Assembly: GCA_905221615.1 (NCBI GenBank)
Contig: CAJNDT010005434.1
Location: forward strand, 198,955 to 262,954
Direction of reading: 5' to 3'
Source of the DNA: Symbiodinium sp. CCMP2592
Taxonomy: Eukaryota > Sar > Dinophyceae > Suessiales > Symbiodiniaceae
Length of the DNA: 64,000 nucleotides
Part shown: positions 19,618 through 48,756 of the stretch, in pieces
How positions within the stretch are numbered: position 1 is the stretch's first letter
Layout: the number at the start of each line of letters is the position of its first letter
The notes under the pieces: generated by a model
Told to the model about the DNA's origin: nothing
What the model saw: only the letters and a program-made list of their open reading frames with translations
The model's database searches: none
Position numbers and translations under genes: made by a program

Positions 19618-19653
<36 letters not shown>

Positions 19654-22073: not shown

Positions 22074-25000
22074 TCAGTTCCAACGCCATCCGCGATTGCG
22101 CCACTCACGCCAGTTCTGGTTGTCCCAGTTCTGGCCGCTCCATGTTCCCCAGGATGACGAAGACCAATTCTGCCACCAGGATTGATTATCCCAGTCCCAG
22201 TCGCGGTTGGTGCGATCGGCGGCCTCGGCGTTAGCCGGGCTTTTGCCTTTTCCCTTCTCTGCTGCTCGGGCATATGTAGAGCCCTTGCCACCACCTGGCG
22301 GATGCTGCTGGGCATACTTCGGCTGGGCAGCACGACTTTGATTGGCCTTTTTGATGGTTTCATCAACCGTCTCCACCATGAAGGGTAGGTCCTTTGCCAA
22401 AACGGTCTGCAGGTCCGTACCCACTGCAGCGGGATCGTAGTTGAGGAAATCCACCTTGCCGTGGCCAAAAGTCTGTAGACGGATGCCCCCCTTTTGCCTG
22501 GCGACGTTGTGAGCGAAATCTTGGAACGAAAGGATGGCTCCGTACCATGTAAATGCTACTGGCGTATCCTCCGGCGTGGACGTTAGTCCCGCTGCGCACA
22601 ACTTACCGCCAATGCCATCGTCTCCGGTAAAGAAAACGATACGACACTCTGGAACCCCGTCCGTGCGGATCTGGTGCGTGGAACTCGCCGCTCTGGAGGA
22701 TCCAATAGCCAGCATGCGTTGCGATCGAGTGCGGCCAGGGTTCGGAAGGTAGGCGAAGCAGAGGCAGTCGAGGGCACGGATCGTTCTGCGTGTGTATCCC
22801 TCTTTGGCCATTGAAATTGCGTATTCATTGTCATGATTGAACCTCGCCACGCAATCAGTGTAGCCCTTTTTCACGGCTCTCTGCTTTGCCACTTTGGCTT
22901 TCCGAATAACCTCGCCTTCTAAGGAGTTCATGCCACGGCCGGCGACATCTTTCGATGCGCTTTGAAGGCTTGGCCTCACTCCCACTCGTTCAGCGGCATC
23001 ACCCATCTCCTGAAGCAGAGCTTCACGCCCACGTGCCAACAGCGTCCGTCTGCCCTGTGCCTTCAATTGACCTGGTCGAACTGGCCCTCCGCATTGAGAG
23101 CAAATCCTTTGGCCTTGAAGACACTCAGCTTTGCAGTGGTAGCATTTGATTTTCTCCAAAAACGCGGCGGATGGCTTGGTCTCACTACCAGCATAAAGTA
23201 CTGGTTCTGGCCTTCCCACCGGCTCCTGGATTGCTTCAACTGGTGTACCCTCAGCATCCAGCGTCACCGTTGTCGCCATTCCGTCACCGATGTACACAGT
23301 CCTGATTGGAGGACCCGGCTGTGCAATGATGGTGCCTGGTTCAACAAGCGGCCTCTCCTCTACGGAGGGCATTTGCTCATCATCAGGAGCTTCATCGTCG
23401 TCAGCCTTTGCAGGGGCATCGGTGATAGCCAACGATCCCTCAAGCACATCAGCGACATCTGGAATGGGCGGTAGGGATGTTTCCTCAGCTGGAAGGGTAC
23501 CATGTTCTTCATCAATAGGCGGTGCGAAATTGTCCTGAGTCGTCTCCTCAGCCTCGGGTTCATCAAGAACGATATCGATGCCGGCCTCAGCGTTAGCTGG
23601 GCTTTCACCTTGTTCCGCCTCATCAGGAGGGACAGCGCCTCCCGCACGGGACCAAAGTACGACATCGCGTTGCGTGTCATTGATGAACAAGATGGTCGAG
23701 CCGGGCACTGCCTCGGAGCACAGTATGCCATCAGACTCCGTAAGGAATAGGTCGCAACCAGCTTCGAGGACCTCCCGGGTGTCAAAGACGATCTCAATTG
23801 GTGCGCTTGCACGGAGTCCTGAACGTGCCTTTTGCTCTTCGAGCGGCAGCGGCGCAAAATAACAATGCGCCTTCTCAGAACCTCCAAAACCAGGCAACAA
23901 ACGATCTTCCAGAATCGCATACGCCGCATCATGTGTTGTGCGATGATAGAGTCTGGGCGGCGCCTTATCAATCGGGATCAACGGCCTGCCCTCTCGGGCG
24001 GCATTAGCCAGCTCTTCAGAACGCTGCAGTGTAAGATATGCCTTTGCAATAGAGGCATTGTCGAGCTGCAGATTGCTGGAGTGGCCTTGCGTACAACCGA
24101 CGTAGACCGGAAAAGCCGGTTGTCCAATTGCATCGGCAGCACTGTCCATTGGTCCGCGAAACATAAGGCGCTGTTTGTTGTCGGTGGCGATCATGTCGAG
24201 GAGGCTTCCTAAACCGATGTCGCTTCCAGGTCTGCATCGATTAGCAACCTCAAGCACTTCCATGGCTAGTACCCATGGCCCGCTCCACGATCGCATTTTA
24301 AATTGATTACCCTTGTTTTCGAAGTTGCCCCTGATCAGTCCAGTGACAAATGTGACCATCTTGTGGTCACATCTGGGGTAGTGTAGGCCTGGCGTCATGT
24401 CTTTTTGGAACACTTCGATGTACTGGTCGGCCTCCTCTTGCGAGGGGCATTCGTTCCAGTAATCATACAGGGTAATGCCAGTCATCTCGGCGAAGTCGTA
24501 GGTGTCATTCATGAACCTCATTCCGCGCGATCCCTGCACTGCGAGCTTGGTCAATCGCTGCTTGTCGGCCTCAGCCTTTGCGAGGCGAGCTCTTTTTGCA
24601 GCGTGCTCGGTGCCAGAGTCGCCAGACAGAATGCCTCCACCATAAATGGATGCGTCGATCGGCATTGGTCGAATATCGCCAGAAGACGAAGCCGCAGTAC
24701 TCGCCGGGGTAACGGCCTCCACCTTAGGTGGGGCTTTGTTCCATTCCGGCGAATTGATCTCCTCTTCTGTTGCGAAAACACCGGGCGCGACGCTGATGAC
24801 ATTCTGAATCTTCATCTCCTTGAGGAAGTCGGGGACCTCAGGCGCAGGCAGTTCGGCGTGACTTTCGTCACGCTTCTCCTCCCAGTATGCGTCGTCCCAC
24901 GGATCCTCCTCCGTTGGCTCCGCTTTGACCTGCTTGCTTCTCGTCATCCTCGCAAGAGCCGCTTGCAGGACATGGTTATCCACTGCGTAGCGACCACGGG

Positions 25001-27685
25001 AATCAAAATAATTTTCAGCAAGCAGTGATTGGAAGGCGGCTTCGCCCATTTTCGCTATGGCTCTGGAGGCGTAGCGCTCGGCGATCTCGATCTGCATGAT
25101 GTGGGCTAAACCCGAAACCATCTTGCGGCGGGATTCGCTGTCCTCGCGGAAATGGACGTTGTCATTATAGAGCGCCAAATCTCCAAGGAAGGGGTGGATG
25201 TCACAGGTGGCGAGTCCTCTACGGACCGCTTCGTCCTTGAATCGCGCAATGCATTCATCGAACTGCTTTGGGAACCCGTAGACGAAGCTGCGAATTCCTG
25301 TGCAGATCACAATGGACCCCACATATGGAGAACGGCGCTGCAGGTCTGCAAGCGCTTCAAGGTTTTGGCAAACTCTCCGACAGATCTTTTGCCAATCTCC
25401 GCGGGCCTCTATGGGCGATTGATGGTCCCACCACGTCGGGACGCCGGGGCTGCAAAATATCCCGTATCTGCCGACGATCTCATTCGCCATCCAGACAATC
25501 TGCACGTCCACCAGCAACTCTTGGTCGCCAGAGTAGCGCAGAGCCGTCTGGTCACAGAGGATCTGAGCCCTCTCCCGAATTTCGGACAATGTTTTGCCCC
25601 ACAGGGGTTCGTAAATTATCTCCCTGTATTGCAGATAGACCCCCGAGCTCGCTGCCTTCAAATCCGAGGAAAGGTCTGTCCTCGTTCTCTTGCCAGCAAC
25701 GAAAACAGTCGTAGAGTCGGAGAGGAGGATGAGCACCCGCTTTCGGCCTCGATTTTCATCGGGCTTTAGCTGCGACATGCCAGACTGCGTCAGTGCTGCC
25801 ACTCGGTTGAGCCCAGGATATCGATCCGTTTCAAAGCAGTTGTGAGCAGCCACTTGCACCGGCATGTACTGAAAAAGTGCTCGCAACTCTCCTTCGTCAA
25901 TCGACTCTTGGAAGCCTATCGACTCGTGACTGATGACGGCCGCCCAAAGCTGGCGGCCCCAAAAATCGGCCAACTGCTCTTCGTAGGTCGCCATCGCTCT
26001 TCTACTCTCAGCTGCTACCACGGGACTAGGACCCGGCCTCAGCGTTAGCTGGGCTTTAGTTGTACAGTAAAGCGATGACAAAGCTGCGCATGCCAGTCCT
26101 TCATGTACCTTAGGTCCATCATTGTCCTTAGTAGTATGCACTTGCCAATCAGCATGCAATGCCGAAACCTTGGTTTTCGATGTCCTTAGTCGTCCACAGT
26201 CCTGGGTAGCTTCGAGCAGCAGCCGCTTCAATCGAAAAGACGATGCAAAGATCAGCGACCCGCTCTTGTGTTTCTCAAGACCGAAATCGTGTGCCAACTT
26301 AACAACAGCAGGCATACACCACATCTCGTTGTTAGCTGAAGCTTCCAACAGCAGGTGGGGCCTAAGACGTTTGGTTAATCGGCATAACGACATCAACGAT
26401 TTCAGACATTTGTTCCATTCGTGGTCCGGCAGCGATGCAAAGTAGAGAATCGGTTTAGTGCTTCCCCCCTCGTCGCAGAGGGCACGAAGATTGTTAGCGA
26501 TTTTTGACATAGCTTTCGGATTCATGGTTTCAAGTTTGTTCGGGACAGGGATAACACGACAGGAATCATTTCCTGACAAGGTGGTTTCACTAGCGTTCCC
26601 AAAGTCAAGCAAAACCCTGCAAAAGTCCATCGGCCTCGGCGCGAGCCGGGCGTCTGCAGGAGCGGCCGCCGCAGACCCGAGCCTAAAGCCGTGTTTGTTG
26701 AGGGTTTCAAGATCAGTTGTGGAAAGCTTGGGAAAACCACGAGAGGTATACGCGGTGATAGAAAAACGTTTTCCGGTATAAGGCAACACGCAGTGTTTCT
26801 TGGCTGGGTCAAAGACAAAAGGTTTGCAATGGGTGTCATGCACATCCCCTTTGATGAAACGTCCTTGAGCGTCTTTCTGGAACTGCGCCTTAGTATCCGA
26901 AACAGTCTGATCTTCAACCCACAATCCACCTCCTTTGTGGTCACCAAAGCTAACCATCAGGTTCTTAGAACCCTTTAAGTTATGGGAATCAGCATGAACT
27001 TTTGCCATGTTGTCCTTGCTAATCACCACTGAGGTCCATGTGAAACCTGAGTCGGGAGAATGAGCTTTCACGAACTCATTCAAGTACCTGGCAACTGCGG
27101 GATACCTAGTGGTGCTTCTGGTAACACCTTGCATTCCACCGTGTGTCCAAGTTCCGTACACTTGATAATAGCCTTGTTTCTTTGATGCAATGCGAGGTCG
27201 CTTGGATTTCTTAGCTGTATGATTTGATGCAATCTCTTCACACAACCTTTCCAAAGCATCACAGCCGTACTCCTTCAGGCGGGAAAGTTCTGAAGCAACC
27301 ATCTCAACCTCCTGAATGGCAGCAGCTGCTTTAGCACGTTTGCCTTGAACCTCGTGTGGTGTAGGAGAGCGGCCTGGCTTTTCAGCCGGCTTCGCATTCT
27401 GCGCATCAGGTACATGATTGATGAGCCTAAGCGCGTGTTCCCACTTACCACGTTCAGCAAACGGTTTTGTGAAGATGTCTGCGACCTGTTCTTTGGTATC
27501 AACATTGATCATGTTGAAATGGCCCTTTTCGAACTGTTGCTTCATCCATGCAAACGAAAGTCGTTGCGTCCTATCGGTGTGACGAAGCTTTTCACTGTCA
27601 CCTTTCGCAATGATGGTGATTGTAGCTTGGTTATCTTCTAAGAACTGAACCTGAAACTTTTCAGAAAGATGAACATCCAAGCCAT
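22074..27685 (-). CDS. Retro-A copy 1 pol, C-terminal part (RNase H end and accessory domains)
   Basis: An open frame of 1868 codons from the first Met at 27680 to the stop at 22074. In order: the end of RNase H (HTDRTQRLSFAWMK, DIFTKPFAE), then a dioxygenase-like domain (residues ~165-325; H229, D231, H296, R305), a methyltransferase-like segment (~345-515), an SGNH-hydrolase-like domain (~645-850), a linker, a Tpt1/KptA-like domain (~1180-1335), a four-cysteine zinc ribbon (~1512-1532), and a Trp-rich tail. Copy 2 shows this is the continuation of RT-RNase H in one frame: copy 1 lacks one T near 27685 (CCATTATAT against CCATTTATAT), which breaks it here. Fifteen CGGCCT hairpins lie in copy 1 between 22222 and 28855. 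Confidence 0.85.
23080..23150 (-). other. Zinc-ribbon segment in Retro-A pol
   Basis: The frame reads KCYHCKAECLQGQRICSQC, two CxxC knuckles 11 residues apart, typical of a zinc ribbon. It follows an acidic, low-complexity linker and precedes a basic region. Such a module could bind nucleic acid in the element particle. The same segment is at about 57181-57251 in copy 2. Confidence 0.65.
23680..24140 (-). other. Tpt1/KptA-like (RNA 2'-phosphotransferase-like) domain in Retro-A pol
   Basis: The segment has VGCTQGHSSN, like the R-A-x-Q-G-H-S motif of Tpt1/KptA, then RLYHRTT (family: LYHGT), AILEDRLLPG, a strand HCYFAP, PIEIVFDTREVLEAG and GILCSEAVPGSTILFIND. Motif order and spacing match the family, which moves the 2'-phosphate of spliced tRNA to NAD+. 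The arginine expected just before QGHS is not present and the later arginines are uncertain, so activity is doubtful. A role in RNA or NAD+ chemistry of the element is inference. Copy 2 equivalent: 57781-58241. Confidence 0.6.
25140..25745 (-). other. SGNH/GDSL-hydrolase-like domain in Retro-A pol
   Basis: Begins RVLILLSDSTTVF, a strand followed by S-D-S in place of the G-D-S nucleophile motif. About 190 residues later comes YNDNVHF, the D-x-x-H motif that supplies the acid and base. WMANEIVG between them could be the Asn block. Length and spacing fit a complete SGNH domain. In copy 2 the serine and histidine are about residues 1376 and 1563 of the frame from 63941. Esterase domains occur in some LINE elements; one inside a copia polyprotein would be unusual. 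It could instead be a lectin-like SGNH fold without activity. Confidence 0.5.
26130..26640 (-). other. Degenerate methyltransferase-like segment in Retro-A pol
   Basis: The order FCRVLLDFGNAS, ILYFASLPDHEW, LRPHLLLEASANNEMW, then a SLIFASSFRLKRLLLEAT strand pair parallels, in position and spacing, the MTase-like domain of Retro-B (MECGAHSNSL, HVWITPECKGY, VTIEMADKSQAW). Key motifs are eroded. I infer a distant, probably inactive relative. It follows the dioxygenase-like domain, the reverse order of Retro-B. Confidence 0.35.
26690..27180 (-). other. 2OG-Fe(II) dioxygenase-like (TET/JBP-like) domain in Retro-A pol
   Basis: The segment starts YYQVYGTWTHGGMQGVT and contains KVHADSHNLKGSKN (codons of H at 26994-26996 and D at 26988-26990), GGGLWVED, and KKHCVLPYTGKRFSITAYTSRG (H at 26793-26795, R at 26766-26768). 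This gives the full signature H-x-D ... H-x8-R of Fe(II)/2-oxoglutarate dioxygenases. The form H-x-D-x-H-N with a following G-S is like that of TET/JBP nucleic-acid oxygenases. Substrate is unknown. Retro-B has a homologous domain with the same four residues. Copy 2 equivalent: about 60791-61281. Confidence 0.7.
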
Positions 27686-30600
27686 TATATCCGCGACAGA
27701 GCGTCCTTCATGACTGAGTTCACCATACCTGATTTCATCAAGCTCCGGGTCAATCCTTGCAACGATTGTTTCCGTGACTTTAGGTGATTCCGCCGGCGGC
27801 CTGGTCTTTCGACCGGCTGCATTAGCGGTAACCTCTCCCCAAAGGTAACACCACAAGCTTAAGCTAGGCAGGCCTTGTGCTCTGATGCCGTGATTCGCTG
27901 AAACTACTTCACTTTCGGTGCTAGACGTCGTGATGCTGGTCTGTTTCTTTGAAAAAGCGTTCAACGGGTAGTAAGTGTTGGGCCCAACCAAGAACAGTGC
28001 GCATCCTGATGTGGATTTGGAATCAAATTCTCCTGCCCAATCGGCGTCACAGAAGAGCCACAACTTACAGTCCGAAATCTTATCGCCAATAAAACCCTGC
28101 ATCGTGATGTCCAAGCTCGAATTAATGTAGCAGATCAGCCGATGTAAACCGACATCGCAGTCTCTTGACCACTTCGTGACCCTAGAAGCGAGCGACTGGG
28201 TACACCGAAGTAAGTCCCACCTTGCCATTCTTGCTGCAAACAATACCTTCATGAGGACCCGACTGGCAATCGGTTGTAACCTCCCCTGGGGTTCGTTGCC
28301 TTCCACAGGTTTGGCTACTCTGTTCTCATGAAACGGCGTAGCTGCAAACTTCAGGGAATCACGTGAAACTTTAGCTAGTTCACAGTACTTGTCGACACAG
28401 GAGACCAGGAAGTCCTTCATGTCATACGTCACAACGTTGACAGGTTTAGTCATAGCGGGGACGGGTTCCTTGATGATCGTATCAGTGCTCTTAAATCTAG
28501 ACTGCTTAGCTTCGCGCTTAGCGTCTGATTTGCTTCTCATCGGCCTGCCCTTTCGGGCGGCAGCAGCGAGCTTAAAGTCGTCTGCCGTCGTTGGCATGAT
28601 AGAGAAGATTGTTTTGCCCGTCCACCACTCGTTTCGCCTAGCAGGGCCCCCCTGATTGGAATCATCCTGTATCTGATCTCCATTCTCAAACTCTGTTATG
28701 CGTTCAGTTCCCAGAGTGGGAAACTGTCTCATGTCGTCTTCACTTGGTACGTACAAACGCTTTCTGGGGTACCTGTGATGTCTGATTGCAAGCGCAGCAT
28801 CCGGATCAACCTCCCAATAATCTTCTGTTCTACTCGGCCTGGAGTTTCCTCCGGCTGCTGGTGCTGCAATTTTCTTATCGAAGACATAAGCAAAAGGATG
28901 TGCGCTGCGGTCAAGCATAACACCGTTCTGCTCTCGATGATTGCAACCAAAGTATCTCCCAAAAGGTTCCGAAGGATCCATATCCAAAACCTTCCCAATC
29001 CCCTCCCATCCCTTAGCAAGATTGTCCTTTGGTCCTGCCATTTTGAAATCGTCGACGTAGACGACGAGGAGGAGATCTAATTCCGGATGGTAAAAGATAC
29101 TTTGCCATATATCTGGAAGAACCGGGATCCACCCTATGCTCTTCAACTGAGCAGTGCAGTGTCGTTCCCAGATGCCGCCGCTGTCAGGATGTCCATACAA
29201 AGCGAGTCTGAGAGGACAAACTGGGTCGCGAAAGTTGCGCCACTCGGGCGGTCGACGATTCTTGGGAAGTCGAACCCAAGTCGCAATCCCTTTGAACAAA
29301 GCTTGAGTATACGCTTGTCGAGCATCAGCTTGCTGTTTTGCATAGCCTGGTTGGCTTCCGAACACATCGATGATTTTACCCGCTTCCATACTTGCAGGGC
29401 TAGAACCCAGTTCGGCGAAGATCGCGTGATCCGCATTTTCATCTCGAACCTGGTTCCCCTGGAACACAGAGCGTCCCTTGTAGTACTTAAGCGGATTGCC
29501 ATCCTGCAACTCGGAACCCTTAAGGCTGCAAATCTCGAACACGTTCCCGAAGTGAGCCTTTTCGCCTTTTGCCTTGGTTTCAGACAAGACGTCGTCGTAC
29601 TCACGAACTTGTTTCTCAAGCCAACACCCTTTATCAAGAAGTTTCTTCCATTCTTTGTCCATAGCAGCCTGAGCCTCAGGGTTTCTGGCAACATCATTCT
29701 GATTGATAAGCTTGGCAACCACAGCGAAAAGATCCTCGCAAGTTTCCTCTAGCTTATCCAGAAATAAACCGTGCAACCTCTTCCCATCCTCAGGCGTCCT
29801 CGGTCGATGAGGTTCTCGATGTCCAAGGAGAACAGGCATAGCGGGAGCTTCTTTCTCTCGTTCTTCTTTTAATCTAGCTTCCTCCCGCGCAACCTTCTTC
29901 TCCCATCGTTCGATTTCCTCTTTTCGTTGTTGTGCGGAATACATGTGCCAGAATTCGGACGGGACATCAGGAGGTCTTTTGGAGCCTTTCTTGTTCCTCA
30001 CAAGTCTAACCCCATCCCAATTGTAACCAGCAGGAACCGGTCTACCATCAGGATATTTCGTGGGATCAAACAGATCACCTTTGGAACTAGACGATGGCTC
30101 ACTGGGCCTAGGCGCGGCCTCACCTTTCGGTGGGCTTTGATCGTCATCGGGTTCGGGTTCGGATAAGCCGATTTCATCAAGAAGTTCGCCTGCCTCACGA
30201 AGTCCCCGTTCCTTTTCTTCATCTGAAGCATGAATGTTCTGATCATCCAACAGTGGAACCTCGTGTGCCTCGCGATCCTTGATCCTTCCCGATTGAAGTG
30301 GGAACTCAAAACTCCCCTCAATCAACTCAACGCGCTTAGCCCTGATGACCTTGAGGTTTCCGTCCTCAATGGCAAACTGTGCGTCTTTCACGGGTGCAAT
30401 CAAATACTCCTTCTTCCAAACAAACCCTGGTTGGATATGGTATCCCAGGAAGATCCCTTCAACCCCAGTTGACGAAAACTTGGAAGTCTCCGGAACATTC
30501 TGTTTAGGGTTATGCCAATACAAGACCTTAGCTCCGAAAGGAACAATCAATCCCGCAAAGGACTCCCCAAAGCGTGCCTCCCATGGGATTTCACCAGTAT

Positions 30601-31020
30601 CCACTCGTTTTGTGAGATTGAGCGCAATGGAGTGGTGCTGAGCTGCTAAAGGCCAAAACCGTTCTGGAAGACCGGCTTGCTCCAAGTTCGAGCGCGTACC
30701 CTCTAGTACGGTGCGGATTTCCCGTTCGATGACGGCTTTAGTTTCATCCACGTACTCTCTAGAGGTGTTGTGCCTACATCGGAGTTCCTTCACAGCTGCT
30801 CCTAACTCCGGCGCGTTGTCAGAGTAGATAACCCCAACTTCGTCTTGCGTACCGAAAAAGTGCAGAAAGTCCTCATGCACTTGTTCCGTTGATTTTGTTG
30901 CGCTAGGATACACATACCTAAATTGCGAAAACACATCTTTGATAACAAGCGCCACCCTCTCATCCTGAAATCCAAAGTCCCTCAGATCTCTTGTCACGAG
31001 ATGATCAATGGTAACATATG
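27638..31020 (-). CDS. Retro-A copy 1 pol, central part (integrase core, reverse transcriptase, RNase H)
   Basis: From the right: integrase catalytic core (VTIDHLVTRDLRDFG; IYSDNAPEL; AVIEREIR, with 31 residues between the second Asp and the Glu), a proline-rich linker, then copia-type reverse transcriptase (WKKLLDKGCW ... LVVYVDDFKMAG near 29050) and RNase H (LWLFCDADWAGEFDSKSTSG, STESEVVSANHG). The open frame reaches 31108, but the codons beyond 31020 belong to the inserted palindrome. It ends at 27638 because of the 1-bp deletion described for the next segment. Confidence 0.9.
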
Positions 31021-31084
31021 CCAGTCCGGGGCTAACCGGGTCCTTTCCATTATGGAACCGGGTCCTAGGACTTATTATGTTGAT

Positions 31085-31330
31085 GTGACATAGAATGTAG
31101 CAAGACATGTGTGTTCTTGTGGCTCAATGGAAGACATGCTGGACATGTGAAAACTTGTGTTCTTGCGGCTCAGTGGAAAAACAAAACCTGAAAACTTGGT
31201 CTCTTCCAAATAGAGATGCATACCTGAAAAACTGTGTTCTTGTGGCTCTATATGGAAGAAGCGAGATGCTGGACATGTATAAAAAGATGTGTGCTTGTGG
31301 CTCAATAGAAAAATCAATGCCTGAAACTTG
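31085..31330. repeat. Repeated TGTTCTTGTGGCTCAATGG units at the left end of the palindrome
   Basis: Four imperfect units, at about 31107, 31158, 31224 and 31290, with intervening CCTGAAAACTTGGTCT words. The inverted counterpart is at about 40860-41055. The segment 31330-31740 has a mixed-frame sequence with no gene I can support. Confidence 0.75.
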
Positions 31331-31719
31331 GTCTGATCGAAATGTGAAAGCATATACATCGAAAAATCAAAGCCATACTGACATAATCGCCTGCCCCAAG
31401 TTTTGTAGTTCACATGGACATTAAAGTTGCCAAAAATTTTGAAAATACGTTTGTGCCGAGCAAGCCAAACAAATGTAACTTGGTGTTCTTGTGGCTCAAC
31501 GGAAACAAAAATCTTGAGATTTTGTGTTCTGAAACCCTAAAGTCAGCTGTTTGTACGATTCTCAACGACTTGAAAATTAGCATGTTCATGATTAAACATG
31601 AAGGGTATCTGAACTTTCGTAACGTCCAGCCCATGCCCTAAACCCTGAACTTTAAACTCTATACCCACCCAACCCCCAAACCCGCCCACCCACTCAAGCC
31701 CAGAAGCTGCAGGTAGGAA

Positions 31720-31890
31720 GGGGCACACAGGTAGGTAGAGAGGTATAGTTAGGTAGGCAAGTAGGTATGGATAAGTAGATAGGCAGGAGGGAAGGTACTT
31801 GTAGGTGTAGGTGCGTCGGCAGGCTTGCAGGTCGGTAGGTAGGTAGATAGATAGCTAGGTAGGCGGGCATGTAGGTAAGGAGGCATTGAT
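31720..31890. repeat. AGGTAGGT minisatellite, left arm
   Basis: Short (AGGT)n-like units with variants. The inverted counterpart (CCTACCTA) is at about 40355-40520. Confidence 0.85.
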
Positions 31891-32049
31891 GAGGAAAGAG
31901 GTTTAAAACCCCTAAACCCCTAAACCCTGAACCCTAAAACCCGCAGAAACCCCAAACTAACCCTCAACCCTAATTAAACCTTAAAAGGTAGCAGGCAAAA
32001 GTAGTTGTAGGCATTCGCGCACGCCCTGTCAGGATGTCAGGTGGCCACA

Positions 32050-32330
32050 CCAGGGCTCTTCGGAGCCCCGTACAGGGGCGGGGTGAGCCTGGACCCCGAA
32101 CAGGGGTCGTGAGAACCCCGTGCAGGGGTGTGGATGAACCCCGAACAGGGGTGAGCTTGGACCGTGAGCAGGGGCGTTAGAGCCCCGCACAGGGGCGTAC
32201 CGATGAACCCCGAAAAGGGGTGAGCCTGGACCCGGAACAGGGGTCGTGAGAACCCCATGCAGGGGTGTGGATGAACCCCGAACAGGGGTGAGGATGAACC
32301 CCGAGCAGGGGTGAGCCGGACCCGCAAAGA
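32050..32330. repeat. CCCC-N5-GGGG hairpin array, left arm
   Basis: About ten CCCCGAACAGGGG, CCCCGTGCAGGGG or CCCCGCACAGGGG units are spaced by roughly 20 bp (GTGAGCCTGGACC or TGTGGATGAA). Each is a small stem-loop with a conserved CCCC/GGGG stem and variable loop. A GA microsatellite follows at 32335-32365. Confidence 0.85.
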
Positions 32331-33575: not shown

Positions 33576-33869
33576 ACGGACTGTACCTATACGCAGTCTC
33601 ACAAAAACTTAGATGGACTAATGCACGGATACACAATCCCACAATAAACCAGCAATGGCGAGGAAAAAACGTGTCACTTGCTCAACAAATTGCTTGACGT
33701 GCCTATTGCTGGACCTAAACCCTAAACTCGTCGACCTGAGGTCAGGCCTTCTTCATGCCAAATTCGCTGGCAAGATCGACATTGTGTTTGGAGGCTCGAA
33801 AGGGAAAGTCTGTCCTTTAAGCATGCTCGTGTTTGCATAAACCCTAAACCCTAAGCATCCGGCCGGTAT

Positions 33870-34420
33870 ACCACTACAAGATTGCGCGCCCGGCGCGCGT
33901 TCGCCTCAACGCCCGGCGCGCATACCCGTAAACGTTGCAAGCAGACTAGAGAATAATGTATGTATATTATTATGCGCAACGGCTGAATGTTTATTTCATT
34001 TTATTTCAATGAAGCATTCAATCCACATATACACCTGCGCGCTCGCTGCGCGCCCGGCGCGCGCTCGTTGCGCGCCCGGCGCGCGCACGCTGCGCGCCCG
34101 GCGCAGCGCGGTTGCGCGGCGCGCGCGCGCCGCCGCTGCGCGCCCGCTGCGCGCCCGCGCGCGCGCTCGTTGCGCGCCTTCGCGCGCCCGGCGCGCACCC
34201 GCCTGCACGCCCGGCGTGCGTACTCCGGGCTTATGTGGTTTAGGGTCGTTTTAGCGCCCGCCACGCGTACTCCTGCGCGCCCGTCGCGCGTACGCCTGCA
34301 CGCCCTTCGCGCGCACATCCGTAAATTAATGTTGCAAGCAGAATATCGAATATAGTGTATTACTGCACGCGTACGCTTGCGCGCCCGGTGCGCGTATGCC
34401 TGCGCGCCCCGGTCTTGGGG
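33870..34420. repeat. GCGCGCCCGGCGCGC array, left arm
   Basis: Dense GC-only palindromic words (GCGCGCCCGGCGCGC, CGCTCGTT spacers) concentrated at 34030-34220. Alanine/arginine-rich frames on both strands are by-products. The inverted partner is at about 37735-38235. Confidence 0.9.
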
Positions 34421-35711
34421 AACCTAAATTCCGAATTGGGGGCCTGTGGGGCTGTGTTTGAACCGAACAAACAACCTCAAACTGCTGTTACAAAATTACA
34501 AGCAAAGCCCTTAAGCTCTGAAAGTTATTCGGTTGTTGGGTTATGGTAAGGCCTTCTTATTGAATGTTGAAGCTGCAGTCTGCAGTCTTCGAGTCTGCAG
34601 TTAAGGGTTTTAGGGTTCAGGATTGGGCCTGGGGTTCAGGATTTTGGTTATTCGAGACTTAGGGACGGGTTTCTAGCAACCGCTGAATCAAAGCCAGGAA
34701 ACCCCTGCTCGGCCCACTTATTCAGATTTGGTTCTTCATTGTTTATGAACGTAACCCCAACCCCCGAAAACCTATCAATCAACAACGTCAAAGCCCAAAA
34801 CCCTTAGAGCCCCAAATCCCTAAACCCGGAATCCCCAATGACGTCTAGACCCCTAAACCCTGAACCCAAACATCACCTTTCCCAGAAAGCCTCGAAGCTA
34901 AGCAGAGAGCCTACACCTCCAAATTCCGAAACCCCTAGATAGACCTCCCAAACCTCAAATCCCCAAGCCCGGCTTCAGGGTCTAGGGTTTCAGGTTTTCG
35001 CGCTTTAAGCTGTGAGAGCTTCGGGGTTCAGGGTTTGGGGTGTTAGAAGTCAGCGGGGTTTCAGCGTCCTTAAGTTCAACGTGGGTTGAGCCTTTGTCGT
35101 TTGGGGTTTCTGCTTCTGCAAGTTTCGGGATTCAACGCTTAGGGGTTCAGGGATTGGGGCTTTAGAGTTTTAATTTTGTGTTTGGAGGCCAGGGTTTCAG
35201 GGTTTGGGGCTTTAGAGTTTGAAGGTTTAGGTTTTGGGGCCGGCTACAAGGCGGCTTTAAGAATTCAGAGCTTCCGGCCTAGGGTTTCAGGGTTTGGGGC
35301 TTTAGCGGTCACGGTGGTTTGAATCCCTTACGTGGGTGGGTAGACAAGTCGGTGGGAAGGTAGCGAGGTATGGCTCCGTAGGTACAGGCTTGGTAGGTAG
35401 GTAGGTAGATTCGTGCTTTTGGGTTTGGGGTTTGGGTTTCGGTTTAGGGGTCCAGGGTTTGTGGGGCAAGGGGTCGTTCAGTGGTACTGGGCTTTGGTGT
35501 TTGCGATGTGCGGTTTCGGGTTTCTAGGGTAAGGGGTCTTTGGGTTCGGTGGTGAGGGGTTGTGGGGTTTTGCCTTTGGGAGCTATAAGTTTAAGGCCTA
35601 TAAGTTTGGAGTCCCAACAGCTGCAGCTGAAACCCCTGGAGCCTTGAATTTCAAACCCCTGCAGGGGGAGGGCTCAAACGTCGACCGGCGGCACCTCAAT
35701 CATGCTCCACG
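34421..35711. other. Inner left arm: CCCTAAA-like and GGGTTT-rich sequence
   Basis: No gene supported. Words such as CAGGGTTTGGGGCTTTAG repeat. The arm homology ends at about 35711 (CTCAATCATGCTCCACG). Confidence 0.6.
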
Positions 35712-36391
35712 GTTTGGTTTCCTTGAATTATTCTGCGATTTGGGTTGGTTTCCTTGAATTATTATCCGATTTGGTTTGGTTTCCTTGAATTTATATATGT
35801 TTGGCGATGGCTTCCTTGAATTTGTAAATGTTTGGCGATGGCTTCCTGGAATTTACAGAAAATCAAGGAAACCATTTGGTTGGTTTGGCCGGACAGAATC
35901 AATCACAATTTGGAAGTTGGCTCACGGCCGAAAGTGTGATTGGTTTTCTGGAAAATCGATCGCGTTTTGATATTGCAAAATAGAATCGATCACGTTTTGG
36001 CCAACGGCCCAACACCGAGATTGTGATTGATTTTGTTTTGCAAAAGGAAATTGTGATTGATTTTCTGGAGAATCGATCGCGTTCTGGAAGTTGGCCCAAG
36101 ACGGAAAATGTGATTGATTTTTTAATTTTTTGTTTGTGTTTCCATGATTCGGATTTGGATTTGGTTTGGGTTCCTTGAATCATTATCCGATTTGGTTTGG
36201 TTTCCTTGAATTATTAGCCGGTTGGTTGGGATTCCTTGAATTTATATATGTTTGGTGATGGCTTCTTTGATATATTCAACATCCACTAGGCTTGGATTCA
36301 CTCCATGCCAAATCCGGCCGGCCACGAGCGATCGGGACTTACCTTAAGCTCCACGAGCGACCGGGAAACTACGTGTAGTTTCCCGATCGCT
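35712..36391. repeat. Spacer of the palindrome with TTGGTTTCCTTGAATTATT repeats
   Basis: Two interleaved repeat types: GGTTTCCTTGAATTATTA at 35715-35860 and 36165-36250, and AATCGATCGCGTTTTG or GTGATTGATTTTCTGG at 35930-36120. There is no gene. Its right edge is a nearly perfect 50-bp palindrome at 36349-36398. Confidence 0.75.
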
Positions 36392-36398
36392 CGTGGAG
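36349..36398. repeat. 50-bp near-perfect palindrome at the inner edge of the right arm
   Basis: CTCCACGAGCGACCGGGAAA is followed after ACTACGTGTAGT by its near complement TTTCCCGATCGCTCGTGGAG. The left arm has only a half-site (TGCTCCACG at 35703-35711), so the palindrome marks where arm symmetry breaks. Confidence 0.85.
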
Positions 36399-38550
36399 CA
36401 TGCTTGAGGTGCCGCCGGTCGACGTTTGAGCCCTCCCCCTGCAGGGGTTTGAAATTCAAGGCTCCAGGGGTTTCAGCTGCAGCTGTTGGGACTCCAAACT
36501 TAGGCCTTAAACTTAGATCCTAAAGGCAAAACCAACCAACCCCTCACCACCGAACCCAAAGACCCCTTACCCTAGAAACCCGAAACCGCACATCGCAAAC
36601 ACCAAAGCCCAGTACCACTGAACGACCCCTTGCCCCACAAACCCTGAACCCCTAAACCGAAACCCAAACCCCAAACCCAAAAGCACGAATCTACCTACCT
36701 ACCTACCAAGCCTGTACCTACGGAGCTATACCTCGCTACCTTCCCACCGGCTTGTCTACCTACCCACGTAAAGGATTCAAACCACCGTGACCGCTAAAGC
36801 CCCAAACCCTGAAACCCTAGGCCGGAAGCTCTGAATTCTTAAAGCCGCCTTGTAGCCGGCCCCAAAACCTAAACCTTCAAACTCTAAAGCCCCAAACCCT
36901 GAAACCCTAAAGGCTGACCTCTAAAGCCCCAAACCCTGAAACCCTGGCCCCCAAACACAAAATTGAAACTCTAAAGCCCCAATCCCTGAACCCCTAAGCG
37001 TTGAATCCCGAAACTTGCAGAAGCAGAAACCCCAAACCACAAAGGCTCAACCCACGTTGAACTTAAGGACGCTGAAACCCCGCTGACTTCTAACACCCCA
37101 AACCCTGAACCCTGAAGCTCTCACAGCTTAAAGCGCGAAACCCTGAAACCCTAGACCCTGAAGCCGGGCTTTGCGGATTTGATTGGGAGGTCTATCTAGG
37201 GGTTTCGGGATTTGGAGGTGTAGGCTCTCTGCTTAGCTTCGAGGCTTTCTGGGAAAGGTGATGTTTGGGTTCAGGGTTTAGGGGTCTAGACGTCATTGGG
37301 GATTCCGGGTTTAGGGATTTTGGGCTCTAAGGGTTTTGGGCTTTGACGTTGTTGATTGATAGGTTTTCGGGGGTTGGGGTTACGTTCATAAACAATGAAG
37401 AACCAAATCTGAATAAGTGGGCCGAGCAGGGGTTTCCTGGCTTTGATTCAGCGGTTGCTAGAAACCCGTCCCTAAGTCTCGAATAACCAAAATCCTGAAC
37501 CCCAGGCCCAATCCTGAACCCTAAAACCCTTAACTGCAGACTCGAAGACTGCAGACTGCAGCTTCAACATTCAATAAGAAGGCCTTTTACCATAACCCAA
37601 CTACCGAATAACTTTGAGAGCTTAAGGGCTTTGCTTATAATTTTGTAACAGCAGTTTGAGGTTGTTTGTTCGGCTCAAGCACAGCCCCACAGGCCCCCAA
37701 TTCGGAATTTAGGTTTCCCAAGACCGGGGCGCGCACGCGCACGCGTGCCGGGCGCGCAAGCGTGCGCGTGCAGTAATACACTATTCGATAATCTGCTTGC
37801 AACATTAATTTACGGATGTGCGCGCGAAGGGCGTGCAGGCGTACGCGCGACGGGTGCGCAGGAGTACGCGTGGCGGGCGCTAAAACGACCCTAAACCATA
37901 AACCCTAAACGCAGGAGTACGCACGCCGGGCGTGCAGGCGGGTGCGCGCCGGGCGCGCGCCGGGCGCGCAACGAGCGCGCGCCGGGCGCGCAACGAGCGC
38001 GCGCCGGGCGCGCAGCGGGCGCGCGCCGGGCGCGCAACAACGAGCGCGCGCCGGGCGCGCAGCGGGCGCGCGCCGGGCGCGCAGGTGTATATGTGGTTTG
38101 AATGCTTCATTGAAATAAAATGAAATAAACATTCATCCGTTGCGCATAATATACATACATTATTCTCTAGTCTGCTTGCAACGTTTACGGGTGTGCGCGC
38201 CGGGCGTTGAGGCGAACGCGCGCCGGGCGCGCATGTTGCAATCTTGTAGTGGTACCGGCCGGATGCTTAGGGTTTAGGGTTTATGCAAACATGAGCACTC
38301 TTAAAGGACAGACTTTCCCTTTCGAGCCTCCAAACACAATGTCGATCTTGCCAGCGAATTTGGCATGAAGAAGGCCGGCCTGACCTCAGGTCGACGAGTT
38401 TAGGGTTTAGGTCCAGCAATTTAGGCACGTCAAGCAATTTGTTAAGCAAGTGACACGTTTTTTCTCGCCATTGCTGGTTTGTTGTGAGACTGTGTATCCG
38501 TACATTAGTCCATCTAAGTTTTTGTGAGACTGCGTATACGTACAGTCCGT

Positions 38551-39237
38551 CTATACGTTGAGGACTCTTCCATGCCTGTGAAGCAGAAACCAAAGCTGAT
38601 CTCTGTACGTGTCCGGCATGCCCAGCAAAACCATTGCCAGGAACCTCAGTGGACTGATGACTTCGCAGTATTGAACTGCCAGCCGTCTAGCATCCGTCAC
38701 TGGAATCCGTTCAAACTCAAACGAGGATGCCAGAATGCCCTCGCAGAGCCTCACCATAGTTCCTCGATCAGGCAAAGCCCAATCCCAGCCGGGAGGCTGC
38801 TCAACCAAGCCCCGCAATCTCTCTGCATCTACCGGGTTCACTTCCATTTGCAACTTTCCATGGAGTACGTTGCGTTGTCGAACCATGCTTACTTTCTGTG
38901 TTGTTGGAATCCGTTCCTGTACACCTGCTTCCACAATATCACCTGCAGAGGATCCGCGTCTGTGGTGCCTGGTTTCGAACTGCTGTAGCTCTCTTCGTAG
39001 TTGCCGATCGGTCAAAGCCCGCTCCATTTGCCATCCTGTTGCCAAGTTCATCATGACACATGCCAACACCAGGTCGATGCAGATTAGATTGAATTCCTCT
39101 CTCGTAAACATGTTTCCTCCCATCTGCGTAGTGGCATCGGCAGCGGATCCGTCGCTATAATCCGAATAATAAGTTCCATCATCATCTGAATCAGTTCCTT
39201 CAGGTCCATGAAGCCTGCCAAAATCCGTTCGATCCAT
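38551..39237 (-). CDS. Unknown palindrome-borne gene, right copy
   Basis: A 228-codon frame homologous to 32898-33575 on the plus strand, with scattered substitutions and small in-frame indels: two residues fewer in the SYYSDYSDG patch, and LFAVRF shortened to LRF. In-frame indels suggest the copies diverged under some coding constraint or are very young. The second upstream frame (39317-39084) is longer here and runs on through WIERILAGFMDL. Confidence 0.5.
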   Translation of the reverse strand: MDRTDFGRLHGPEGTDSDDDGTYYSDYSDGSAADATTQMGGNMFTREEFNLICIDLVLACVMMNLATGWQMERALTDRQLRRELQQFETRHHRRGSSAGDIVEAGVQERIPTTQKVSMVRQRNVLHGKLQMEVNPVDAERLRGLVEQPPGWDWALPDRGTMVRLCEGILASSFEFERIPVTDARRLAVQYCEVISPLRFLAMVLLGMPDTYRDQLWFLLHRHGRVLNV

Positions 39238-39774
39238 TGCTGCACTTCCGTGGCAGTACGTCGAACTGGGGCACTTCTTTCCTGGTCTTGAGTTTGACGA
39301 TCTGCGTGCATGGGCATGTCAATAACACTGCCTTGTTTGCATCAAGACTTGTGCAATCGCCTCAGGGTACACTCGCTCAGACATGGCGCTAGTGGCGCCA
39401 AGCAAAACGGTTCGATCTCGTTGAATCTTGAGCTGAAAAACTGCTGCAGTCCAACATGTTGAGCTTGGAAGCCACCCACGGTGCAGCCGTCAAGTCTTGG
39501 AGTGCCGGGTGGCTTGGGGCCGGGGCTCTTCGAGGATCGCGATGCGCAGACTGTCTCAGCCTGGTGGCCGCCGACAGACTGAAAGTGAGCAGAGGGATAC
39601 TGATGCCATGCATGACTTTCCTTCTCTTCCTTCCCTTCCCGCCTCCCTCACATCACTTCTTGCTGCCTGCTCATTCCTCGCATCTACAGTCACACCCTCA
39701 TCTTGATCATTCCTTCTTCCTTGCTTCGTTAATTATTTTCGCTGTGTCTCTCTCTCTCTCTCTCTGCATCTGTC

Positions 39775-40195
39775 TTTGAGGGTCCGGCTCACCCCTGCTC
39801 GGGGTTCATCCTCACATATCCTCACCCCTGTTCGGGGTTCATCCACACCCCTGCATGGGGTTCTCACGACCCTGTTCGGGGTCCAGGCTCACCCCTTTTC
39901 GGGGTTCATCGGTACGCCCCTGTGCGGGGCTCTAACGACCCCTGTTCGGGGTCCAAGCTCAGGTTCTCACGACCCCTGTTCGGGGTTCATCGATACGCCC
40001 CTGTGTGGGGCTCTAACGACCCCTGATTCGATCCCGCAGCCCCTTCGGGCTTGGTGCGGGTACGCCCCTGTACGGGGCTCCGACGGGGTCCAAGCTCACC
40101 CCCCCCTATTCGGGGTTCATGCCCCGACCCACTCAGGCCTTGGCGCGGGTACGCCCCTGTACGGGGCTCCGAAGAGCCCTGGTGTGGCCACCTGA
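39775..40195. repeat. CCCC-N5-GGGG hairpin array, right arm
   Basis: Inverted partner of 32050-32330, but expanded and rearranged: loops TGTTC, TGCAT, TTTTC, TGTGC and TGTAC within CCCC/GGGG stems. The copy-number difference shows the arms are no longer perfect mirrors. Confidence 0.85.
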
Positions 40196-41089
40196 CATCC
40201 TGACAGGGCGTGCGCGAATGCCTACAACTACTTTTGCCTGCTACCTTTTAAGGTTTAGGGTTGAGGGTTAGTTTAGGGTTTCGGGTTTAGGATTTAGGGT
40301 TCAGGGTTTAGGGGTTTAGGGGTTAAGGGTTTAGGGGTTTTAAACCGGTTTCCTCATCAATGCCTCGTTACCTACATGCCCGCCTACCTAGCTATCTATC
40401 TACCTACCGACCTGCAAGCCTGCCGACGCACCTACACCTACAAGTACCTTCCCTCCTGCCTATCTACTTATCCATACCTACTTGCCTACCTAACTATACC
40501 TCTCTACCTACCTGTGTGGTTAGGGGGTTGGGTGGGTTCAGAGTTTAGGGTTCAGGGTTTAAGGCATGGGCTGGACGTTACGAAAGTTCAGATTCCCCTC
40601 ATGTTTAATCATGAACCTGCTACTTTTCAAGTCGTTGTGAATCGTACAAACAGCTGACTTTAGGGTTTCAGAACACAAAATCTCAAGATTTTTGTTTCCG
40701 TTGAGCCACAAGAACACCAAGTTACATTTGTTTGGTTTGCTCGGCACAAACGTATTTTCAAAATTTTTGGCAAATTTAATTTCCATGTGAACTACAAAAC
40801 TTGGGACAGGCAATTATTGATTTTTCGATGTATATGTTTTCACATTTCGATCAGACCAAGTTTCAGGCATTGGTTTTTCTATTGAGCCACAAGCACACAT
40901 CTTTTATACATGTCCAGCCACAAGAACACAGTTTTTCAGGTATGCATCTCCATTTGGAAGAGACCAAGTTTTCAGGTTTTGTTTTTCCATTGAGCCGCAA
41001 GAACACAAGTTTTCACATGTCCAGCATGTCTTCCATTGAGCCACAAGAACACATATGTCTTGCTACATTCCATGTCACATCAACATAAT

Positions 41090-41728
41090 AAGTCCTAGGA
41101 CCCGGTTCCATAATGGAAAGGACCCGGTTAGCCCCGGACTGGCATACATGATCCCCATACTTTTCACTGTGTATGGTCGAAGACCCCCCCTTTCTTCGAG
41201 CTTGGGGAGATAGCATCTTCGCCTTTTGGCACACTTTGCAGAATGGGTTCTTAGGACGATGGCAGAATTGATGATGGATGCTTTCGGCCTCGGCGCGAAG
41301 CCGGGCTTCTTGCGAGATTTCCTTTCCCTCATCTTCTTCCTTGTCACTATCGGGCTCGATTAAGGGGTCGTCCTCGGGTCTTTTGAAAGCAGTAATCGAC
41401 AGAATTGGCGATCCATCAATCTTTTGATTTTTAACCCTTAGACTTCTGATGTCAACAGAATCCTCAATCTTGCTCCAAGCAGAGTCCTTGTAGATCCAAG
41501 TGGTCCTTAGCACGAACCTTGGATGACGAGGTGCAGGTACTCGCAAAGCCTTTGGCCGATGACCAATAATGATCTTTGATGCGGCAATTTCACTGCTAGT
41601 GATCCAACCTGGCTTGGCTAAATCTTTAGGCTTGATTGCAATTGGCGGTGCAGAATTGATTGCTTCTTCTATCTCGGAGTCGCTGTGGACGACTCTTTCA
41701 TCCCCGGCCGGTCCTCTCGGACGGCTTT
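41090..41728 (-). CDS. Retro-A copy 1 pol, N-terminal part (integrase zinc domain)
   Basis: On the minus strand the frame reads ...LRVPAPRHPRFVLRTTW... then ESIHHQFCHRPKNPFCKVCQKAKM, an H-H-C-C zinc-binding domain of integrase, then SEKYGDHV at 41147. Beyond that the frame enters the palindrome. It lies in a different frame from gag, whose stop is at 41729, so pol needs a frameshift or separate initiation. Hairpins at 41287-41306 and 41707-41725 lie in or beside it. Confidence 0.75.
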
Positions 41729-43077
41729 CTACTGGAAACCCGAAGATTCGTCCTCCGCAGGTGCCGCCAGTTCAACCTTGACTGTACCGGCGTTAAACAC
41801 CTGAGTTCCAGCAGATTTCTGGGAATCATCAGCGCTTGCTGGGCTCGCTACCGAGTCATCATTTGAGATCACTGGGACTCTACCCTTCATCTTACACTTG
41901 ATGACTTTACCATCGGGAGCTATAAAGTATGGAACCTTGCCCGCAGGCCAATGGAAATCATATCCATCGTCCATGCATCTTCTCCCAACAGAACACACCG
42001 GTGGCGTGCTTTCCAGTAGATAGCACTCAATGTTTTGCTTCAGTTCAGGCATCGGGATGTTGGTTGACTTGATTCCCTGAACTGGACCATTAGCTGTAAT
42101 CAAGTTGACCGGCCTACTAGCGTTTTCGATGGGAGCCTCTGGGTAGTAGATAGAGTGATCGTGCCTACTGATCAGATCTTCTTCACTGCCAGTATCGGCG
42201 AGGAATTCTAATCCCGCATTAAAGCTAGAGCATGCTGTTCTTTCCACGCTAGAACACAGCTCGCACTTCAACACTGCAACTGGGATCTCACCCTCTTCGC
42301 AGTCATCTGTGCACTCGTACTCACAGTGGCTTTCAATCCCATTGAGCATACAGGACATGATCCTGGCAAGCTCGTTCGCTGTTCTTATGGCCGTGCTTAG
42401 GTCCTGAACTGGAGGCTTTGGGCAGCTTTCAGCATCCAAGTAACAAACTTCGAAAGTTCGCGGTTTGGTCCTATGCTTCTTACCCTTACCATCCAATGGA
42501 ATCTCCCGAATGCTTGGCTTCTCCTTGAACCTTAATTTCTTGAACGTTCCTGAAGCATCACCCTTAACGCCTTGCCCATTGGGCACAGCTGCCAGCGCAT
42601 ACGAAATGCAACAAGCTGCCGTGCGTCCGCCAGACTTTTCCTTGCTCTTGGACCTGCCCCTGTGTTTCTTTTCCTTCTTTGCTTTAGGATCCGGGGTCGG
42701 GCTCCTAGGCTTTTCATCGTTCTTCGCAGGGGCGGCCTGCTCAGTAGGAGCGGCGTCAGTTGGATTGGGCTTATCTTGATGCAGGAACCTACAGTCTTTG
42801 CCTTTGTTGCACTTGCCTTTCTTCCAAAAGGTGCAAATCGCGTTGATCTTCTTCTGAGGCGTTCGATGAGGACTTGGGGATCTTGACTTTGGTTTGTGGA
42901 GAAACTTACACTTGTCGCCTCTTGTGCATTTTCCTTTCTGGAAGTCGTAACAAACCTGTTGTGTTTTGGGACTCTGAGATCTAGGCGGTGTTCGTTGGCT
43001 CGATCCTTTGCTGCTTGTTCTGGATTTTGAGCTGCTTCGGGACATGCTTCTTCCACGGCCTCCTCGTGAAGAGGGGC
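41287..43077 (-). repeat. Four covarying mini-hairpins in Retro-A copy 1 gag/early pol
   Basis: Same architecture as those in pol: 41287-41306 (stem CGGC, loop GCGAA), 41707-41725 (CGGCCG form, stem GTCC, loop TCTC), 42736-42755 (stem GCTC, loop AGTAG) and 43058-43077 (stem CCTC, loop GTGAA). The last two are inside gag, in the linkers around the CCCH fingers. Confidence 0.85.
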
Positions 43078-48729: not shown

Positions 48730-48756
48730 GGACAACTCCTCCATGACTCCAGTCCC

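Follow-up and report, generated by a model that had tools for sequence, protein, structure and literature searches.

A family of structurally selected mini-hairpins dispersed along a Symbiodinium retrotransposon, possible recognition sites on the element RNA

Small hairpins that lie within coding sequence and are tolerated by the encoded protein include the Rickettsia palindromic elements, the mitochondrial double-hairpin elements and byp-type inserts, all of them insertions. In RNA viruses such as MS2, the dispersed packaging signals are many short stem-loops with a common loop and bulge feature and variable stems, and the MS2 coat protein reads a loop motif together with a bulged A (passages of PMC6281560). 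According to PMC5454406, little is known of how long terminal repeat (LTR) retrotransposons select the RNA that they package. The Ty1 packaging and dimerisation domain described there is a cis-acting RNA structure lying partly within the coding region of a Ty1/copia element; it is a single complex domain of 380 nt at the 5' end, containing a pseudoknot and kissing loops, and differs in this from a mini-hairpin repeated over the entire RNA. Here we describe a hairpin family in a 64,000-nt stretch of DNA from the dinoflagellate Symbiodinium sp. CCMP2592 (contig CAJNDT010005434.1, positions 198,955 to 262,954; hereafter the window), which holds two minus-strand copies of an LTR retrotransposon that we call Retro-A.

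Compared with the MS2 signals, the Retro-A hairpins reside in an LTR retrotransposon, have a near-uniform 7-bp geometry with the bulge on the 3' rather than the 5' strand, a stricter stem base and conserved positions, and are known from sequence alone. Unlike the protein-tolerated inserts, most of them look fixed and orthologous, with gains and losses in situ. We recognised no description of such hairpins in the open-licence PMC literature, which is no proof of absence; passages of a dinoflagellate retrotransposon paper (PMC5890265) leave hairpins unmentioned, and no known Rfam family matched at gathering thresholds over the 64 kb.

A recurrent seven-pair hairpin along Retro-A

On the Retro-A sense (minus) strand the hairpins have the form GC-N-N4-loop-N4'-bulge-N'-GC-CG, with a 7-bp stem, invariant basal G-C and C-G pairs, a short loop (GNRA commonest) and usually one nucleotide extruded from the 3' strand. 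Single site numbers (e.g. 23602) denote the higher-coordinate end of a minus-strand hairpin. A pattern scan found the exact form CGGCCT-N4-loop-N4'-GGC 17 times in copy 1, reproducing the count of an earlier, sequence-only reading of this DNA, and 13 times in copy 2 (30 in all), with no occurrence in the opposite orientation in the window. Looser scans added 41725 (bulge C for A), 21865, 22592 and 44098 (compensated outer pair, GCG...CGC) and 43909 (GCU...AGC, with one G-U). A covariance model (CM), trained on the 15 sites with four-nucleotide loops, brought four more: 22960, with a U bulge; 24873, which lacks a bulge; 25229, with a U bulge and GCG...CGC, reaching only E 4.3 in copy 1, which has a mutated tail, and E 0.062 in copy 2; and, at ~42217, a weak member (E 0.13). 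Copy 1 totals 25 clear hairpins and the weak one, spanning 21845 to 44098 (Table 1), and copy 2 has 18. The roughly 20 members placed earlier between 22222 and 43077 are real, but that count was too low and that span too narrow.

The 25 clear sites of copy 1 comprise 17 distinct inner stems, where at least 14 had been proposed, and their third pair is C-G at 18, G-C at six and U-A at one. The bulged A described as conserved is present at 21 of them, with U at two, C at one and no bulge at one; loop counts rise slightly with the extra members, GAAA from seven to eight and UAAC from three to four. A single G-U pair occurs. The base preceding the stem (26 sites) is A at 17, U at five, C at four and never G, suggesting that pairing of the 3' CG is avoided. 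Vienna folding returned the proposed hairpin at all six sites tested (z-scores −1.99 to −3.91), with the 3' C(G) after the stem predicted unpaired at most of them and two additional pairs beneath the hairpin at 27817. The 26 sites are more evenly spaced than random (coefficient of variation 0.54 versus 0.95, p 0.001) and many fall in linkers; hairpins occur in all three reading phases, and one lies 3' of the pol stop codon. Sites 23602 and 26054 do share the same 19 nt in different phases, as had been noted (SPANAEAG in phase 1, AQLTLRP in phase 0).

As the sites were first spotted by their pairing, we adopted a framing blind to the inner stem (GCS-N12..15-A-S'GCCG). On the element sense strand it framed 21 sites, 20 of them fully complementary, compared with one framed and none paired on the antisense strand and a mean of 0.41 framed over 500 dinucleotide shuffles. 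A CM search no richer than chance had been set beforehand as the outcome that would speak against the family; over the 64 kb it gave 43 matches with E<0.14, all on the minus strand within the two Retro-A copies (15 of the 43 are training sites, matching by construction), followed by an opposite-strand match with E 0.32. The matches far exceed chance, and the shuffles gave not one paired site. Across the 15 four-loop sites five of the seven pairs vary on both sides, slid-partner controls being 17–47% paired; because this both-sides count is biased by site selection, the blind framing and the comparison of copies described below weigh more. A perfect-inner-stem scan found no hairpins in three other stretches of the window, and paired sites outside Retro-A were absent from the window except for one in a GC repeat. 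It is nearly certain that the hairpin structure is under selection. A framed GCC...AGGCCG at 24566-24586 (−) has two of four inner pairs and may be a decayed or nascent hairpin.

Selection among copies and relatives

Seventeen further Retro-A copies were obtained, 16 of which were used for rates together with copy 2 of the window (L014, with ~4 kb aligned, was omitted). In the three most diverged (L011, 93.9% identity; L012, 95.9%; L022, 91.1%), none of 306 third codon positions in stem, bulge and CG had changed, where ~44 changes were expected, versus 1216/8478 elsewhere. Counted by letter, 1/797 had changed in stems, 0/54 in bulges, 6/237 in loops and 4/114 in the CG tail (three of the four being copy 1's own change at 25229), versus 1700/26715 in the remaining aligned slice. 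Stems are almost invariant among Retro-A copies, and GNRA loops, when altered, remain GNRA (GCAA, GGAA or GAGA at 24448; GAAA or GAGA at 27390); UAAC has become UGAC in L022 and GUAGA has become GCAGA in L011. Exceptions are the 27817 hairpin of L011, broken by an indel not fully within the substitution counts, and the tails of L011 at 27390, L027 at 27817 and copy 1 at 25229. A pattern search of the window's own assembly (1.098 Gb, 5383 contigs), in which pairing was not required, gave 573 matches; 92 of the first 100 are one of six Retro-A GAAA hairpins with the stem intact, and the other eight are not Retro-A hairpins, none of them being paired. L028, a candidate divergent family, was rejected as an ordinary Retro-A copy (97.7%).

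A genome pattern search for another dialect of the hairpin (617 matches, the first 100 listed) located L029 and L030. These two copies, 91.65% identical to each other, belong to a second copia family of this genome, whose pol is 55–59% identical to that of Retro-A. In the perfect-inner-stem scan their sense strands have 8 and 11 hairpins respectively, including in each the match that led to it, and their opposite strands none, shuffles giving 0.04–0.06; Retro-A copy 1 in the same scan has 22 sense and no antisense hairpins. The bulge follows four inner pairs at 22/22 Retro-A sites but five inner pairs at every site of L029 and L030 (one in each being readable either way). Over 13 hairpins of the second family, four of the seven pairs vary on both sides, a count biased by site selection. 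The eight hairpins shared by L029 and L030 differ at 2/120 letters of stem and tail, and these two letters pair with each other (A-U versus G-C) in the orthologue of Retro-A 28561; loops differ at 0/32 letters and bulges at 1/8, versus 714/8718 in the remaining sequence. With regard to stem changes lacking compensation, which had been named as evidence against the family, the only two stem substitutions in the eight shared hairpins of the second family compensate each other, while L011 has its one broken hairpin and Retro-A stems barely vary. The second family, together with the blind pairing and the third positions, strongly supports the earlier claim that structure, and not protein, is what is selected.

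Other relatives have few hairpins in the perfect-inner-stem scan: three in L031, one in L032, which has no pol match, one in L001 and none in L002. L031 and L032 came from the pattern search, and chance matches may be among their hairpins, lucky pairing being expected in ~1/256 of the 617. A genome-contig search found L001 and L002, and viral-contig searches with P0002 and alignment A1 gave no relatives. L001 (RGVM01000345.1), a contig of a Chitinophagia metagenome-assembled genome (MAG), has one open frame over 3630 bases with a copia-like pol (best segment 49% to Retro-A) and is probably eukaryotic contamination; it contains no tight-form hairpin, its one member being that of the relaxed, perfect-inner-stem scan.

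We also asked by back-translation whether homologous peptides could encode a perfect hairpin, a test that tells that codons could form one and not that they do, in 211 homologues (21 of the Tpt1 part, 120 of the integrase/reverse transcriptase (INT/RT) part and 70 of gag). Near-identical proteins (P0125–P0130) inflate the match counts, and distinct peptides are therefore given. The strict Retro-A form yielded 149 matches (45 distinct) versus 4.6 shuffled and 2 reversed in the Tpt1-part set, several of whose proteins are near-identical, and 59 (46 distinct) versus 8.6 and 10 in the INT/RT set; enrichment in the gag set was weak for the strict form (34 matches, 24 distinct, versus 8.8 and 19) and clear for a generalised GNRA form (33 distinct versus 3 reversed). 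With the third pair and bulge base free and a GNRA loop, GC...GC-CG ranked first of 256 base/tail choices (128 distinct peptides, median 9), ranks 2–4 being its Pro-codon siblings. The best bulge registers were on the 3' strand after four inner pairs (128 versus 12 reversed) and after five (114 versus 12); other 3'-strand positions were raised (51–57 versus 6–16) and 5'-strand positions hardly so (11–28 versus 11–20), and the form without a bulge was not enriched (32 versus 25). In the peptide scan there was little or no excess when the stem was set to 5, 6 or 8 bp or the loop to 3, 5 or 6 nt.

The signal extends down to ~45% RT identity. Distinct GNRA peptides numbered 20 versus 1.2 shuffled at RT identity of at least 75% (11 proteins), 28 versus 2.6 at 65–75% (21 proteins), 9 versus 1.4 at 55–65% (14 proteins) 19 versus 4.2 at 45–55% (32 proteins) and 2 versus 1.6 below 45% (22 proteins), these classes leaving out 111 proteins without a long enough RT match. 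A sixth residue other than R in a peptide match denotes another third pair, bulge base or bulge register, and in 19 proteins (near-duplicates dropped) this residue agreed within the protein in 28/72 pairs versus 10.2 permuted, a value that none of 10000 permutations, nor any of 20000 in a repeat, equalled. A link of the hairpins to the Tpt1 domain was dropped: among the Tpt1-bearing homologues, strict-form peptides are missing from P0103, and in P0116 and P0086 there is a single doubtful one per protein. The generalised scan found three hairpin-codable peptides in P0103 and three in P0086.

When 13 protein sequences are aligned, relatives at ~31–50% identity have hairpin-codable peptides at shared columns and in the same phase. 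The column of 26651 is filled in Retro-A and in 9/9 fully aligned homologues; these ten sequences have seven different peptides there, and P0133 is partly deleted. Columns 1764, 2621 and 2771 each have a filled site in one family where another family has an ordinary peptide that aligns without a gap. P0136 is 6 residues short at column 1446 (site 28561), where an indel is possible, and some linker columns are uninformative. P0137 has AALAGRP three times, two of them followed by serine-rich stretches, possibly through local copying.

Element architecture and the gag-pol junction

Retro-A copy 1 is flanked by identical, LTR-like 151-nt direct repeats (21601-21751 and 44947-45097; self-BLAST) and split by a nested inverted repeat of ~10 kb (31017-41146, arm segments 91–97% identical), which has no hairpins in the perfect-inner-stem scan. 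CCCH fingers were found by the Pfam scan of Retro-A in gag only. The pol of the window copy matches RVT_2 with E 0.016 and rve with E 0.2, both short of the Pfam cut-offs, and the closest homologues of this pol part are 74–75% identical across nearly its full length; integrase precedes RVT_2, as in copia-type pol, and relatives at 57–74% identity have PF07727. Judged by this domain order, Retro-A is a Ty1/copia-type element. In many other Retro-A copies one 3187-aa open frame spans pol and its 3' part, and all homologues with a species name are from Symbiodinium except P0078 (bacterial MAG).

The 3' part of the pol polyprotein includes a Tpt1/KptA (RNA 2'-phosphotransferase) domain that exceeds the Pfam cut-off (23715-24275, −) and is shared with homologues P0124–P0131, P0135 and P0137. 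Upstream of it, P0001 residues ~175–340 resemble a 2OG-Fe(II) oxygenase, with no Pfam match. Another retroelement open reading frame (ORF) at 47752-53808 (+) has an RVT_2 match (E 9e-10), reaches only E 3.4 in BLASTP against Retro-A pol and has no hairpins in the perfect-inner-stem scan. Long telomere-like arrays of CCTAAAC type lie near both Retro-A copies, at 17928-20418 and 55253-55697.

At the gag-pol junction the hairpin starts 3 nt past the gag stop and 9 nt past a slippery-like GGGTTTC. Both families have TCG GGT TTY here, followed by 9 nt that include the gag stop and by the family hairpin, with pol in the −1 frame, making the junction, the only place where a slippery site was looked for, a candidate −1 frameshift site in two families. 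GGGUUUY, a 9-nt spacer and a hairpin are the layout of −1 frameshift stimulatory hairpins, from which the other Retro-A copies of the hairpin differ in that we recognised no recoding context around them.

Table 1. Coordinates of the Retro-A hairpins and associated features (window positions unless stated; inner stems and bulge in upper case, loops in lower case)
Position	Strand	Feature	Basis
21601..45097	−	Retro-A copy 1	self-BLAST, Pfam, hairpin scan
21845..21865	−	GCG GGAG gcaa CTCC A CGC CG, 3' untranslated (after pol stop)	looser scan, CM
22074..27707	−	3' part of pol with Tpt1/KptA domain ~23715-24275	ORF, Pfam
22220..22240	−	GCC CGGC taac GCCG A GGC CG	exact scan, CM
22572..22592	−	GCG GGAC taac GTCC A CGC CG	looser scan, CM
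22940..22960	−	GCG CATC gaaa GATG U CGC CG	CM
23349..23370	−	GCC CTCC gtaga GGAG A GGC CG	exact scan, CM
23582..23602	−	GCC CAGC taac GCTG A GGC CG, phase 1	exact scan, CM
23982..24002	−	GCC GCCC gaga GGGC A GGC CG	exact scan, CM
24428..24448	−	GCC CCTC gcaa GAGG A GGC CG	exact scan, CM
24713..24734	−	GCC CCAC ctaag GTGG A GGC CG	exact scan, CM
24854..24873	−	GCG TGAC gaaa GTCA CGC CG, bulgeless	CM
25208..25229	−	GCG GTCC gtaga GGAC U CGC CA; tail CG in other 18 aligned copies	CM
25744..25764	−	GCC CGAT gaaa ATCG A GGC CG	exact scan, CM
26034..26054	−	GCC CAGC taac GCTG A GGC CG, phase 0	exact scan, CM
26631..26651	−	GCC CGGC tcgc GCCG A GGC CG	exact scan, CM, protein alignment
27370..27390	−	GCC GGCT gaaa AGCC A GGC CG	exact scan, CM
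27638..31123	−	pol ORF part, weak integrase and RVT_2 matches	Pfam, homologues
27797..27817	−	GCC GGTC gaaa GACC A GGC CG	exact scan, CM
28541..28561	−	GCC GCCC gaaa GGGC A GGC CG; orthologous DNA site in L029 and L030	exact scan, CM
28835..28855	−	GCC GGAG gaaa CTCC A GGC CG	exact scan, CM
30115..30135	−	GCC CACC gaaa GGTG A GGC CG	exact scan, CM
41285..41306	−	GCC CGGC ttcgc GCCG A GGC CG	exact scan, CM
41705..41725	−	GCC GTCC gaga GGAC C GGC CG, gag-pol junction	looser scan, CM
41705-41745; L030 ~3010-3050; L029 ~3195-3235	− (window); sense (L030, L029)	GGGTTTC/GGGTTTT junction	sequence
41729..44986	−	gag-like ORF, two CCCH zinc fingers ~42788-42958	ORF, Pfam
42196..42217	−	weak member, one inner mismatch, U bulge	CM (E 0.13)
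42733..42754	−	GCC GCTC ctact GAGC A GGC CG	exact scan, CM
43056..43077	−	GCC CCTC ttcac GAGG A GGC CG	exact scan, CM
43889..43909	−	GCU GCCC aagc GGGU A AGC CG, one G-U pair	looser scan, CM
44075..44098	−	GCG GGCA aacaata TGCC A CGC CG	looser scan, CM
55698..64000	−	Retro-A copy 2, extends beyond window	99.3% identical; 18 hairpins

Candidate roles for the hairpins

That the hairpins are sites read by a protein is likely. The same geometry with variable stems, the fixed places and the different register in the sister family point to a reader protein, probably one per element family, and a packaging or protein-recognition code along the genomic RNA, as the sequence-only reading had envisaged, appears to be the best remaining explanation. 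Our favoured version, to which we assign a probability of about 0.47, is that the hairpins are dispersed recognition sites on the element RNA that serve packaging and are read by an element-encoded protein. On the model of the MS2-type dispersed signals, packaging would be the most parsimonious role: multiple stem-loops share one motif (Retro-A has 25 clear members and one weak, and the two copies of the second family have 8 and 11) on what is presumably the genomic RNA, and RNA structure is selected above coding (0/306 versus 1216/8478). All sites would be bound by a single element-encoded protein that recognises RNA structure, perhaps Gag with its CCCH fingers, whose binding along the full-length RNA would mark and condense that RNA for packaging into particles before reverse transcription; the junction hairpin may also stimulate −1 frameshifting. 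Protein and hairpin sites would co-evolve, which would explain the differing bulge registers of two families in one genome.

Several observations weigh against packaging by an element-encoded reader. The near-absence of G-U pairs (one in 25 clear sites) is unusual for RNA-level selection, and hairpin number is very uneven (Retro-A has ~26, the two copies of the second family have 8 and 11, and L031 has 3), a loose fit to essential packaging. Ty1 packaging requires the 5' domain (PMC5454406), so that dispersed signals are not the Ty1/copia rule. A GNRA-form peptide occurs in only 11/32 homologues at 45–55% RT identity. Of the 28 concordant pairs at the sixth residue, 15 are in P0011 and 6 in P0130; concordance falls to 13/57 versus 6.9 (p 0.018) without P0011 and to 7/47 versus 5.6 (p 0.30) without both, and it could reflect hairpin copying within an element. 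Moreover, third pair and bulge base vary within Retro-A itself. It is doubtful that the hairpins form a co-evolving code for self-recognition, in which each family would label its very long RNA with dozens of hairpins of one geometry in a private dialect of bulge register, bulge base and third pair, and through which an element's own protein would select that RNA for packaging to the exclusion of RNA from sister families in the same cell; for such dialects the DNA of the two families is firmer evidence than the peptides.

The structural evidence would serve equally for a host protein that binds the hairpins and governs how this very long RNA is exported, stabilised, processed or allowed to escape silencing, a reading that we consider unlikely. 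The peptide-level dialects that favour an element reader rest on two proteins, and a host motif would be as undescribed as an element one, given the Rfam scan without a family match. However, a single host reader would not favour different bulge registers in two families of one genome, and the eight non-Retro-A sites among the first 100 of the 573 genome matches, to which the search of host genes was confined, are unpaired.

Translational elements, causing ribosome pausing at domain borders or stimulating recoding, are improbable. They would suit the many sites in linkers and the junction, where in each of the two families GGGUUUY lies 9 nt ahead of the hairpin and pol occupies the −1 frame, but one and the same hairpin is found in every reading phase and also beyond the last stop codon, and pausing does not need a GNRA loop, a bulge register or a tail.

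The tiny mobile or self-copying hairpin module first proposed, of Rickettsia palindromic or mitochondrial double-hairpin type, found no support and is very improbable. The identical hairpins 23602 and 26054 in different phases, the three AALAGRP sites of P0137 with their two serine-rich sequels, and the residues that P0136 lacks at the 28561 site, an exception among the columns, speak for it; it is disfavoured because relatives at ~31–50% identity share columns in the same phase and because empty sites at columns 1764, 2621 and 2771 have no gap in the protein alignment, no empty site was seen in DNA, and beyond Retro-A the window has no paired site save the GC-repeat match. Single-stranded DNA hairpins acting in reverse transcription or integration have equally little to recommend them: strict Watson-Crick pairing and the stability of d(GNRA)-type loops in DNA would fit, but the GNRA loops are on the sense, that is RNA, strand, plus-strand DNA is only briefly single, and we know of no counterpart in integration chemistry for ~26 sites over 13 kb. 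That the hairpins are an artefact, whether of base composition, of codon usage or of repeats in the protein, might be suggested by GC-rich linkers and recurring Ala/Arg/Pro peptides but is refuted by the shuffle, antisense, reversed-protein and slid-partner controls and by third-position conservation.

The hairpins constitute a second, structural code along most of a mobile element's coding length, with covariation and synonymous invariance visible in the sequence. Back-translation of peptides is a way to detect such RNA structure from protein databases without DNA, and the tens of natural variants and two registers present in one genome make the choice of RNA by a retrotransposon testable in vitro.

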